Shown here: piece after piece, positions 2,315 to 5,701 of the stretch
Position numbering within the stretch: position 1 is the stretch's first letter
Layout: every line of letters begins with the position of its first letter
Assembly: GCA_019634795.1 (NCBI GenBank)
Contig: JAHCAR010000002.1
Span: forward strand, 62,001-126,000
DNA length: 64,000 bases
Direction: 5' to 3'
Origin: Dokdonella sp.
GTDB lineage: Bacteria > Pseudomonadota > Gammaproteobacteria > Xanthomonadales > Rhodanobacteraceae
Notes under the pieces: model-generated
What the model was told of the DNA's origin: nothing
The model's database searches: none
Seen by the model: the letters and a program-made list of their open reading frames with translations, nothing else
Made by a program: the position numbers and the translations under genes

Positions 2315-2409
2315 CATGGTATTTTTCATGGCACTGAGCCTGATAGTTCTTGCAAATTGTTGTCACTAAAGGGTTTTGTGTGCTTGTTTACAATCGAGTG
2401 GGAGTGACG
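2315..2409 (+). repeat. Internal island end / attachment-site-like sequence (guaA 3' end copy)
   Basis: Contains CATGGTATTTTTCATGG (2315-2331) and, starting 68 bp later, a 27-bp block (2383-2409) whose core GAGTGGGAGTGA encodes the last residues of guaA (E-W-E-stop). Both blocks recur with identical 68-bp spacing at 5607-5623 and 5675-5701; the second copy differs by one base in the 27-bp block. This is the right-end signature of a guaA-targeting island. Its presence inside the acquired region, directly against the ISCR2 end, implies either a second stacked element or a duplicated end. Confidence 0.75.
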
Positions 2410-4247
2410 GGCACTGGCTGGCAATGTCTAGCAACGGCAGGCATTTCGGCTGAGGGTAAAAGAACTTTCCGCTAAGCGATAGACTGTATGTAAACACAGT
2501 ATTGCAAGGACGCGGAACATGCCTCATGTGGCGGCCAGGACGGCCAGCCGGGATCGGGATACTGGTCGTTACCAGAGCCACCGACCCGAGCAAACCCTTC
2601 TCTATCAGATCGTTGACGAGTATTACCCGGCATTCGCTGCGCTTATGGCAGAGCAGGGAAAGGAATTGCCGGGCTATGTGCAACGGGAATTTGAAGAATT
2701 TCTCCAATGCGGGCGGCTGGAGCATGGCTTTCTACGGGTTCGCTGCGAGTCTTGCCACGCCGAGCACCTGGTCGCTTTCAGCTGTAAGCGTCGCGGTTTC
2801 TGCCCGAGCTGTGGGGCGCGGCGGATGGCCGAAAGTGCCGCCTTGCTGGTTGATGAAGTACTGCCTGAACAACCCATGCGTCAGTGGGTGTTGAGCTTCC
2901 CGTTTCAGCTGCGTTTCCTGTTTGCCAGCCGGCCCGAGATCATGGGGTGGGTGCTGGGCATCGTTTACCGCGTCATTGCCACGCACCTGGTCAAGAAAGC
3001 GGGCCATACCCACCAAGTGGCCAAGACGGGCGCGGTCACCCTGATCCAGCGTTTTGGATCGGCGCTCAATCTGAATGTTCACTTCCACATGCTGTTTCTC
3101 GACGGTGTGTATGTCGAGCAATCCCACGGCTCAGCGCGTTTCCGCTGGGTCAAGGCGCCGACCAGCCCAGAGCTCACCCAGCTGACGCACACCATCGCCC
3201 ACCGGGTGGGTCGCTATCTGGAACGGCAAGGCCTGCTGGAACGGGATGTCGAAAACAGCTATCTGGCCTCGGATGCGGTGGATGACGACCCGATGACACC
3301 CCTGCTGGGGCACTCGATCACTTACCGTATCGCTGTCGGTTCACAGGCGGGGCGAAAGGTGTTCACTTTGCAAACTCTGCCGACCAGTGGTGATCCGTTC
3401 GGTGACGGGATTGGCAAGGTAGCCGGGTCCAGCCTGCACGCCGGCGTGGCGGCCAGGGCCGATGAACGCAAGAAGCTCGAACGGCTGTGCCGGTACATCA
3501 GCCGCCCGGCGGTATCCGAGAAGCGGCTGTCGTTAACACGAGGCGGCAACGTGCGCTACCAGCTCAAGACGCCGTACCGGGACGGCACCACGCACGTCAT
3601 TTTCGAACCATTGGATTTCATTGCAAGGCTGGCCGCCCTGGTACCGAAGCCCAGAGTCAACCTAACCCGCTTCCACGGGGTGTTCGCACCCAACAGTCGG
3701 CACCGGGCGTTGGTCACGCCGGCAAAACGGGGCAGGGGCAACAAGGTCAGGGTGGCTGATGAACCGGCAACACCAGCACAACGGCGAGCGTCGATGACAT
3801 GGGCGCAACGGCTCAAGCGTGTTTTCAATATCGACATCGAGACCTGCAGCGGCTGCGGCGGCGCCATGAAAGTCATCGCCTGCATTGAAGACCCTATAGT
3901 GATCAAGCAGATCCTTGATCACCTGAAGCACAAAGCCGAAACCAGCGGGACCAGGGCGTTACCCGAAAGCCGGGCGCCACCGGCTGAGCTGCTCCTGGGT
4001 CTGTTTGACTGACGAGCCTGAAGGCCAACGATACCAATCAAAATGCTGCGTTCACAGCGCCGCGGCAGGGATCCGCCGTGCTGGTTGTCGGAAAAGGAGC
4101 CGCTAGTGGGAAAGAGGAGGGTAAATTTTCAGCGTTGCTGGCTCCCCGTCAGCCGGATTGGGTTGCATCGCAGGGGTGTCGAAAGAGTCAACTGCGGTCC
4201 AAAGCTGTTGGACTTGGGTGAAAAGGGCGTTTATTCTTCCTATACGT
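2410..4247 (+). mobile_element. ISCR2 (CR2), IS91-like rolling-circle element
   Basis: The right (oriIS) boundary is placed at about 4247, where the glmM reading frame is abruptly interrupted next to TTCCTATACGTTG. Subtracting the usual ISCR2 length of about 1.85 kb puts the left (terIS) end at about 2400, which coincides with the end of the att-like block at 2409. The element contains one complete transposase gene. IS91-like elements have no inverted terminal repeats and make no target duplication, consistent with what is seen. ISCR elements can mobilise adjacent DNA by one-ended transposition. Confidence 0.8.
2519..4012 (+). CDS. rcr2: ISCR2 rolling-circle transposase
   Basis: 497 residues, matching the known ISCR2 transposase length. 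An N-terminal cysteine-rich zinc-binding region (CESCH ... CKRRGFCPSCGARRM, about 76-105) precedes the HUH-type metal motif within LNVHFHMLFLDGVY (about residue 185). A conserved tyrosine segment, CRYISRPAVSEKRL, follows near 325, and a second CSGCGG zinc motif lies near the C-terminus. It nicks DNA at oriIS and drives rolling-circle transposition. AAGGA lies upstream of the ATG. The frame is intact, so the element could be active. Confidence 0.95.
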   Translation: MPHVAARTASRDRDTGRYQSHRPEQTLLYQIVDEYYPAFAALMAEQGKELPGYVQREFEEFLQCGRLEHGFLRVRCESCHAEHLVAFSCKRRGFCPSCGARRMAESAALLVDEVLPEQPMRQWVLSFPFQLRFLFASRPEIMGWVLGIVYRVIATHLVKKAGHTHQVAKTGAVTLIQRFGSALNLNVHFHMLFLDGVYVEQSHGSARFRWVKAPTSPELTQLTHTIAHRVGRYLERQGLLERDVENSYLASDAVDDDPMTPLLGHSITYRIAVGSQAGRKVFTLQTLPTSGDPFGDGIGKVAGSSLHAGVAARADERKKLERLCRYISRPAVSEKRLSLTRGGNVRYQLKTPYRDGTTHVIFEPLDFIARLAALVPKPRVNLTRFHGVFAPNSRHRALVTPAKRGRGNKVRVADEPATPAQRRASMTWAQRLKRVFNIDIETCSGCGGAMKVIACIEDPIVIKQILDHLKHKAETSGTRALPESRAPPAELLLGLFD

Positions 4248-4490
4248 TGTCGGCAGCGGGCCAAAAAGGAATACGTCCATGCCCATCGAGGTGAAACCGG
4301 CTGTGAGCGCGGGTTCAAGCATATAGCCCGACAGGCGCGTATCCTTGCCGATCACGACACGATGGCGGTGGTCACCGCGACGAAAGACACGGCCAGCCGC
4401 CATGCCGACGCGCAAGGCGGTTTCCGCCGTCATCGCGCCTTCGTTGGCTTTGCCACGAATACCGTCTGTGCCGAAATATTTGCGCACCAT
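4248..4490 (-). pseudogene. glmM: Truncated phosphoglucosamine mutase (delta-glmM)
   Basis: The minus strand from 4490 encodes 81 residues of a GlmM N-terminus ([15 protein letters not shown] ... [11 protein letters not shown] ... FGPLPT). The match stops and the frame runs into ISCR2 sequence, ending at 4188. The catalytic serine loop and everything after it are missing, so no enzyme is made. The arrangement sul2 then glmM on one strand preserves the folP-glmM operon order of the chromosomal ancestor of sul2. ISCR2 insertion or one-ended transposition made the truncation. Confidence 0.93.
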
Positions 4491-4576
4491 AAGGTCGATT
4501 ATCCTGTCGTCGGGTCGCCCTCAAAGGGGACATGCCTGCTGAACCGCGAATATAGAGAAATATCCCGAATGTGCAG

Positions 4577-5392
4577 TTAACGAATTCTTGCGGTTTCTTT
4601 CAGCGCCGCCAATACCGCCAGCCCGTCGCGCAAGGGGCGCGGCTCGTGTGTGCGGATGAAGTCAGCTCCACCTGCGGCGGCGGCAAGCTCTGCAGCGAGT
4701 GTCGCGGCCCCGACATCCCCCGGACCACGGCCTGTGAGCGCGCGCAGAAAGGATTTGCGCGAAACAGACAGAAGCACCGGCAAATCGAAGCGCAGCCGCA
4801 ATTCATCGAACCGCGCCAGCACCGAGAGCGAGGTTTCGGGAGCAGCCCCCAGAAAAAACCCCATGCCGGGATCAAGGACAAGGCGGTTGCGTTTGATACC
4901 GGCACCCGTCAGCGCCGCGATGCGCGCGTCAAAGAACGCCGCAATGTGATCCATGATGTCGCCAGCGGGTGCCTCGCGCCGATCTGCCTGCCCGTCTTGC
5001 ACCGAATGCATAACGACGAGTTTGGCAGATGATTTCGCCAATTGCGGATAGAACGCAGCGTCTGGAAAACCGCGAATATCATTGAGATAGGCCACACCAC
5101 GCGACAAGGCATAGGCTTGCGTCGCGGGTTGATAACTGTCGAGCGAGACGGGAATGCCATCTGCCTTGAGCGCGTCCAGCACCGGCGCGATACGCGCGAT
5201 TTCTGTGTCGGACGAAACAGGCGCGGCGTCGGGATTGCTGGATGCCGGACCGAGGTCGATCACATCTGCCCCCTCGGCCATCAGCTTACGCGCCTGCGCA
5301 ATGGCTGCGTCTGGCGCCAGATACCGGCCTCCATCGGAGAAACTGTCCGAGGTTATGTTGACGATGCCGAAAATGATGAGCGATTTATTCAT
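4577..5392 (-). CDS. sul2: Sul2, sulfonamide-resistant dihydropteroate synthase
   Basis: 271 residues, the full length of Sul2, and matching the reference sequence as I recall it. Dihydropteroate synthase landmarks are present: GIVNITSDSFSDGG for pterin/diphosphate binding, DLGPASSNP, VLDPGMGFF and LLSVSRKSFLRAL. The enzyme condenses the pterin diphosphate with p-aminobenzoate in folate synthesis but discriminates against sulfonamides, giving resistance. It lies 86 bp upstream of the glmM fragment on the same strand. Transcription starts from the AT-rich leader at 5400-5445. There are no frameshifts or premature stops. Confidence 0.97.
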   Translation of the reverse strand: MNKSLIIFGIVNITSDSFSDGGRYLAPDAAIAQARKLMAEGADVIDLGPASSNPDAAPVSSDTEIARIAPVLDALKADGIPVSLDSYQPATQAYALSRGVAYLNDIRGFPDAAFYPQLAKSSAKLVVMHSVQDGQADRREAPAGDIMDHIAAFFDARIAALTGAGIKRNRLVLDPGMGFFLGAAPETSLSVLARFDELRLRFDLPVLLSVSRKSFLRALTGRGPGDVGAATLAAELAAAAGGADFIRTHEPRPLRDGLAVLAALKETARIR

Positions 5393-5443
5393 GGGGGCTT
5401 CTATAATAATAATAATCGAGCATGAGTCTCATACGGATGCTCG
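5393..5443 (-). promoter_or_regulatory. sul2 leader with trinucleotide run and hairpin
   Basis: Directly upstream of sul2 (minus strand) is an ATT/ATA trinucleotide run (5404-5416). Beyond it an inverted repeat CGAGCAT/ATGCTCG (5417-5423 and 5437-5443) contains a nested palindrome ATGAGTCTCAT. The AT-rich run offers -10-like sequences (TATTAT/TATAGA), but no convincing -35 is visible. It is probably the sul2 promoter and leader region. The rest of 5444-5606 contains no gene that I can recognise. Confidence 0.4.
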
Positions 5444-5606
5444 GGTCGAAAGGGAATCCCCAGGCGAGTAACCTGTTTGCGGTGATCCATTAGCTGCAGG
5501 AGCAGAAGAGCATACATCTGGAAGCAAAGCCAGGAAAGCGGCCTATGGAGCTGTGCGGCAGCGCTCAGTAGGCAATTTTTCAAAATATTGTTAAGCCTTT
5601 TCTGAG

Positions 5607-5701
5607 CATGGTATTTTTCATGGTATTACCAATTAGCAGGAAAATAAGCCATTGAATATAAAAGATAAAAATGTCTTGTTTACAATAGAGTGGGAGTGAC
5701 G
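5607..5701 (+). repeat. Island right end and attachment site at the guaA 3' end
   Basis: CATGGTATTTTTCATGG (5607-5623) and a 27-bp block (5675-5701) with core GAGTGGGAGTGA repeat the pair at 2315-2409 with identical internal spacing. The core reads as the last guaA codons and stop, and tadA begins one base later. guaA-tadA adjacency is what an uninterrupted chromosome of this group would show, so this is the true junction between island and host. The AT-rich stretch between the blocks contains TTAGCA (5633-5638), 18 bases, then TATAAA (5657-5662), and also TACAAT (5681-5686), as weak promoter candidates. Confidence 0.75.

Follow-up and report, generated by a model that had tools for sequence, protein, structure and literature searches.

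The 64,000-nucleotide stretch of Dokdonella sp. analyzed here (contig JAHCAR010000002.1, positions 62,001 to 126,000; hereafter the window) carries the right part of a complete GIsul2, an island inserted at the 3′ end of guaA. The guaA end of the same genome, identified by family match (G000:C12:52236), is followed immediately by the integrase gene int, and the 8-bp core GAGTGGGA occurs on the contig at 52228 (attL), 64396 (window 2396, attLR) and 67688 (window 5688, attR), bounding an island of 15,460 bp. As is typical of GIsul2, there are three attachment (att) sites including attLR, and the backbone from int to resG, the ars operon, CR2 and sul2 is present, as judged from annotated copies (for the 12-kb part, from the gene list of E. 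coli record L126). Pfam identified an arm-DNA-binding domain in Int. Identity to chromosomal and plasmid copies in E. coli and to copies on other plasmids was 100.0% as printed (a rounded value) over the full length. The window does not differ from the island of PMC9376610, which has the same three core sites and the same size, and in which the stacked arrangement has already been published and the sites named attL, attLR and attR. The interest of the locus would lie in the origin of its second element, CR2-sul2, between attLR and attR. To the known structure we add evidence suggesting that this element belongs, as a rebuilt cassette, to a large family. We found no description of guaA cassette arrays, or of an antitoxin remnant beside sul2, among the listed matches in the open-licence literature, and the available text of PMC9376610 mentions neither the 17-bp arm block, nor a link between terIS and left arms of other units, nor the antitoxin remnant.

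An earlier reading of the window from its letters alone (the original prediction) had noted a pair of blocks repeated at the same spacing. The pattern CATGGTATTTTTCATGG-N51-CTTGTTTACAATNGAGTGGGAGTGACG had just two matches in the window, one at 2315-2409 and one at 5607-5701, and none in 100 dinucleotide-preserving shuffles. The 17-mer CATGGTATTTTTCATGG, searched with up to three mismatches, was found only at these two sites (0.02 expected). The two copies lie 3,292 bp apart with a block start-to-start spacing of 68 bp in each; their 17-mers are identical and their 27-bp blocks share 26 of 27 positions. The 27-bp block encodes I-E-W-E-stop, the 3′ end of guaA, bearing out the terminal codons recognized in the earlier reading, and the leftward search proposed there found guaA, int and a third core on the same contig. 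Left of the core, attLR and attR match at 52/100 nt overall. Since the sequence between the blocks is not conserved, the pair represents two homologous ends and not a recent duplication.

Records from other hosts showed each half of the island alone as well as stacked. The left 12,172 bp (hereafter GI12K), with the tyrosine integrase inside it and attLR as its right boundary, was present in 22 E. coli records: 16 matched the full island, two matched to 14,012 (one of these, L127, continuing with floR and other cargo) and four ended within 4 nt of the attLR core. In L126, the one of these four whose junction was inspected, chromosomal sequence begins right after the attLR arm and core. CR2-sul2 comes with a core and with left and right arms that are its own. 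Its right end was present at 20 loci, seven of which have a CR2 left end 3,292-3,293 bp upstream. At three of the seven (L034, L036 and L046) the unit lies behind a GI12K arm. At the other four it stands alone directly after guaA, precisely core-to-core: L035 (a Terricaulis metagenome-assembled genome, MAG), L083 (Luteimonas wenzhouensis), L090 (a Caulobacterales MAG) and L099 (a Brevundimonas MAG). At 11 of the 20, no CR2 left end was found upstream within the fetched stretch. Two loci, L015 (Pseudomonas saliphila) and L044 (Alteromonas antoniana), showed a CR2-sul2-type right end followed by another CR2 left end, a configuration of either tandem CR2 units or a circle junction.

Because GI12K occurs alone, CR2-sul2 occurs alone and their right arms appear to belong to different lineages (see below), sequence comparison supports reading GIsul2 as two stacked units that each target guaA, in agreement with the tandem accretion first suggested for this locus. 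Int-driven excision of GIsul2 and of CR2-sul2, and integration by Int, have been demonstrated in another host, where int was required and deletion of rcr2 was without effect (PMC9376610). A circle junction of GIsul2 (attR-side arm, core, left end of the island) was matched over at least 80% of the query in 45 of 5,426 complete E. coli genomes, and DNA of the sul2-side end in 1,766 of them. In these E. coli sequences the excised-circle junction is fixed; one copy (L011:1489) lies near IS26.

To place the two right ends, we scanned a collection of species genomes for the arm block 50-80 nt before a core. Among the matches listed, this right-end signature occurred at least 127 times in at least 114 stretches, and 123 of 127 had a gap of 63-65 nt although 50-80 was allowed; many of these matches are related and hence not independent. 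The CR2-sul2 arm block fits the 63-65 nt spacing. Twenty loci picked by hand (for tandem ends or TGGCA-type left flanks, and a few others) led to 19 genomes, each with at least one match by construction; these gave 43 right-end matches against none for the reversed pattern. Record titles or genus names place 18 of the 19 in the Gammaproteobacteria, and most are MAGs. A guaA gene scored over the cut-off in 17, and in 8 of these 17 the ends lie behind guaA on its contig and are oriented like it.

The two GIsul2 ends behaved differently in this family. Among the matches listed, 47 other distinct ends lie within 15/90 mismatches of the CR2-sul2 right arm, the nearest, in Sedimenticola sp. BM503 (L147), at 5/90, whereas the nearest non-identical end to attLR is at 37/90. 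A tree of the 110 distinct ends among those matches, in which support is modest or absent at many nodes, places attR within the environmental ends, the nearest at a distance of 0.11, with attLR 1.66 away. A hidden Markov model (HMM) of 67 ends far from both GIsul2 ends matched the window only at 2309-2395 and 5599-5686. These comparisons indicate that the attLR and attR right arms derive from different lineages and are not copies of each other, which is new as far as we searched. Internal duplication of one end was rejected on the 52/100 match, the mismatch distances and the tree. The 17-bp block was also seen in direct orientation to the right of the core in 22 of 128 distinct ends among the matches listed (up to four mismatches; 17 at 70-72 nt), at loci including L027, L068, L096, L136, L137, L146, L147, L151 and L157. 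Through this second class of left end, some units carry the block at both ends. A Thiogranum MAG (L149) has a second copy of the last bases of guaA plus core on a non-guaA contig, its core at 4770 on the reverse strand.

Left ends were modeled from 23 motif-bearing candidates. Twelve were dropped because of an rcr trace or int nearby or a non-GTG start, or by hand (L097, L117 and one L153 end), leaving 11 sequences without rcr or int nearby. The resulting HMM detected the CR2 left end at 2404-2445 (E 2e-9, 32.9 bits), an E-value that is optimistic because the left ends had been chosen beforehand for a TGGCA-type motif also present in CR2. Elsewhere in the window the model scored at most 7.5 bits, and the reversed window and 30 shuffled ones gave no more than 10.1 bits. 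At least two TGGCA-type motifs right of the core were found in 22 of 117 distinct flanks among the matches listed (two of them CR2's own) versus 57 of 5,000 random positions. CR2-sul2 has this TGGCA-type arm after its core, and by position the proposed terIS of ISCR2 corresponds to the core plus this arm. Left ends adjoining Int genes have part of the motif in common. The CR2 left end was not supported as a copy of the GIsul2 left end (24/100, ungapped), and the arm was not shared by four records of other ISCR relatives (58-65% aa identity, two of them near-alike upstream), which lack the core as well. A CR2 relative lies directly after guaA in a Rhodanobacteraceae MAG, 84% identical over 1,130 nt to the contig end, with an Rcr 88% identical in amino acids that the contig end cuts short. 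In Gammaproteobacterium BRH_c0, Rcr2 fragments with 100% aa identity stand at contig ends (L157, G010:C69; L158, G010:C17), and from its fragment L157 continues as far as a guaA-type right end of another kind, which may mark a CR2 unit that carries other cargo.

Twenty-nine units bounded by two cores were delimited in 22 environmental loci and range from 822 to 10,688 bp. Forty open reading frames (ORFs) from the 17 of these units that are below 3.3 kb were surveyed for toxin-antitoxin (TA) families. A TA family matched over the Pfam cut-off in 14 of the 17, or in 12 of 17 if Fic is not counted. No Int-like match was found inside any of the 29 units. Int-like proteins occurred in 13 of the 19 genomes, and those 86-87% identical to the Int of GIsul2 are encoded immediately behind guaA in G002 and G017; in G011 they follow a guaA 3′ end, at two contig edges. 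In the isolate Kineobactrum sediminis F02 (L132), guaA is followed by three units in line and then by a core with a weak arm block (5 mismatches).

A putative trace of such cargo lies beside sul2. Eleven distinct cassette ends among the matches listed are 78-86% identical to the window over 281-290 nt, in alignments that begin at window position 5414 or 5416 and extend to the core. Positions 5416-5538, when translated, match residues 65-105 of a ~107-aa protein at 73% over 41 aa (tblastn, 58.5 bits, with E-values of 4e-14 and 6e-14 for the two top-scoring queries among four; no score in 200 shuffles exceeded 26.2 bits). The front of the gene is lost and a stop lies inside it, 23 nt separating the remnant from the sul2 start codon. 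Homologues of the ~107-aa gene end several of the environmental units. We call its product a putative antitoxin because in L146 the gene follows a Gp49-type toxin gene. Of a TA cargo, CR2-sul2 would retain only this broken remnant.

Taken together, these observations favor CR2-sul2 as a rebuilt member of the small, integrase-less, often TA-carrying units found at guaA, since it has a left arm of one class, a right arm like theirs and a broken end of a putative antitoxin gene. We give this explanation, stack included, a probability of about 0.75. The stack, the units standing alone, the shared arms and the remnant are themselves read directly from the sequences. Mechanistically, Int probably binds the arms that flank the 8-bp core and recombines one core with another; units with suitable arms would then be able to circularize and to insert at guaA or at one another's cores, and glmM-sul2 would have been put into a TA unit of this kind, in an order of events that is conjectural. 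A wider proposal, to which we give slightly less than even odds, is that guaA hosts a widespread integron-like cassette system in which a GIsul2-type integrase moves small arm-bounded units, many carrying TA pairs, into and out of arrays behind guaA, with ISCR2-sul2 as one cassette, terIS as an integrase arm and sul2 in a wrecked TA cassette.

Several points weigh against these readings. The arm binding by Int and the mobility of the environmental units are both what we infer. A close Int (86-87%) was found in only 3 of the 19 genomes and no Int-like protein in 6 of 19; no guaA scored over the cut-off in 2 of 19, the ends lie on non-guaA contigs in 9 of 17, and most of the genomes are MAGs. 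Three of the 17 small units had no TA match over the cut-off, and the putative antitoxin itself matched no Pfam or NCBIfam family. The TGGCA-type motif was absent from 80 of the 117 distinct right flanks among the matches listed, so it marks only one of several left-end classes, and the left-arm models did not find GIsul2's own attL.

The most serious competitor would make the left arm the true terIS of the ISCR2 family, belonging to Rcr and not to Int, with the rcr-less environmental units as decayed ISCR2-family elements. A CR2 relative or rcr remnants do follow the left end in L155, L159 and L133 (in L133 the rcr-like ORF is a 5′ remnant only), 6 of the 19 genomes contain a match to Rcr-like sequence, and a LexA-controlled rcr promoter, to which LexA binds, lies just inside the ISCR2 left end (PMC13393415). 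However, at 11 left ends no trace of rcr was seen over the next 3 kb, or as far as the stretch extends (less than 1.3 kb in two stretches), the four ISCR-relative records have neither core nor arm, left ends beside Int genes carry part of the motif, and rcr2 is dispensable (PMC9376610). We therefore regard this view as unlikely.

Two simpler accounts fare worse. One takes GIsul2 to be a single island whose internal att site is part of ISCR2, with no independent second element; in its favor, identity across hosts indicates that the island spreads as a block, and 18 of the 22 E. coli records that have GI12K also have the internal site. The original prediction had named such an internal copy in reference islands as grounds for rejecting accretion; the copy is there, yet accretion stands, as each half occurs at guaA without the other (CR2-sul2 in L035, L083, L090 and L099), the right arms are of two lineages and CR2-sul2 excises independently in published assays (PMC9376610). 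The single-island account is accordingly very improbable. Slightly less credible still, and rejected as the main cause, is the ISCR2-mediated import of a second end, the alternative offered with the original prediction, taken here as rolling-circle transposition that brought in a second copy of the GI12K right end. ISCR elements have been proposed to carry adjacent DNA (PMC13393415), but attR is not derived from attLR (1.66 in the tree, against 0.11 to the nearest environmental end among the matches listed), the lone unit is precisely core-to-core at four loci, and in published knock-outs mobility needs int and is unaffected by loss of rcr2 (PMC9376610).

The guaA units resemble several known systems. 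CR2-sul2, lying between two cores with rcr2, truncated glmM and sul2 as its main ORFs and no integrase among them, is att-bounded and lacks integration and transfer genes like a cis-mobilizable element (CIME); such elements derive by decay from integrative and conjugative or integrative and mobilizable elements, and here the ORF list showed no int remnant, an antitoxin remnant being present instead. In CIME accretion (PMC5704250), integrase-less att-bounded units are likewise stacked on or beside an integrase-bearing element. Unlike the CIMEs described there, the guaA units are small (0.8-10.7 kb), occur several per site and often carry TA genes; none of the 29 had an Int-like match, and no search aimed at transfer genes was made. 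ICERspD18B (PMC7775301) and GIflu-1 (PMC13418153) share the guaA core GAGTGGGA and have ISCR2/IS91 and sul2 regions; in the available text both are presented as single islands, without arm blocks or small TA units.

In integron cassette arrays, a tyrosine recombinase stacks small units, rich in TA genes, at a single site. The guaA arrays would work in the same way and differ in their site, a guaA core with arms; we claim no membership among integrons. If the proposal is right, they offer a second cassette-array system for comparison. ISCR2-sul2 is a common carrier of sulfonamide resistance, and should CR2-sul2 prove to be a guaA cassette, both the terIS boundary of ISCR2 and its mobility, which is under debate, would come down to site-specific recombination with arms. 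Its reservoir and first cargo could then be named and sampled, as TA units of marine, sediment and other environmental Gammaproteobacteria.

Features of the island and its right border are collected in Table 1.

Table 1. Features of GIsul2 and its right border in the window
Feature	Position	Strand	Basis
arsH and arsR, GI12K	106..1202	-	ORFs; annotated in matching E. coli island
resG-type recombinase gene, GI12K	1350..2087	+	ORF; recombinase annotation in matching E. coli island
17-bp arm block, GI12K right end	2315..2331	+	pattern search; right-end HMM 2309-2395, E 6e-11
attLR core GAGTGGGA, internal att site	2396..2403	+	core search; attLR name from PMC9376610
CR2-sul2 left arm, formerly terIS of ISCR2 (proposed)	2404..2446	+	left-end HMM 2404-2445, E 2e-9, 32.9 bits
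LexA-box-like CTGT-N8-ACAG upstream of rcr2 (predicted)	2484..2499	+	sequence match
rcr2, ISCR2/IS91-type transposase gene	2519..4012	+	ORF; Pfam Y2_Tnp, Zn_Tnp_IS91
Truncated glmM	4188..4490	-	ORF; phosphoglucosamine mutase annotation in near-identical E. coli region
sul2	4577..5392	-	ORF; Sul2 annotation in near-identical E. coli region
Putative antitoxin gene, broken 3′ remnant	5416..5538	+	tblastn; residues 65-105 of ~107, internal stop
17-bp arm block, CR2-sul2 right end	5607..5623	+	pattern search; right-end HMM 5599-5686, E 4.9e-18
attR core, outer right end of GIsul2	5688..5695	+	core search
First gene beyond island	5701..6186	+	ORF

The product of the first gene beyond the island is, we presume from its sequence, a TadA-like deaminase. 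A tRNA scan of the window found none. Outside the island, at 7097-7317, lies an 89-bp repeat in two copies 132 bp apart that are 89% identical.

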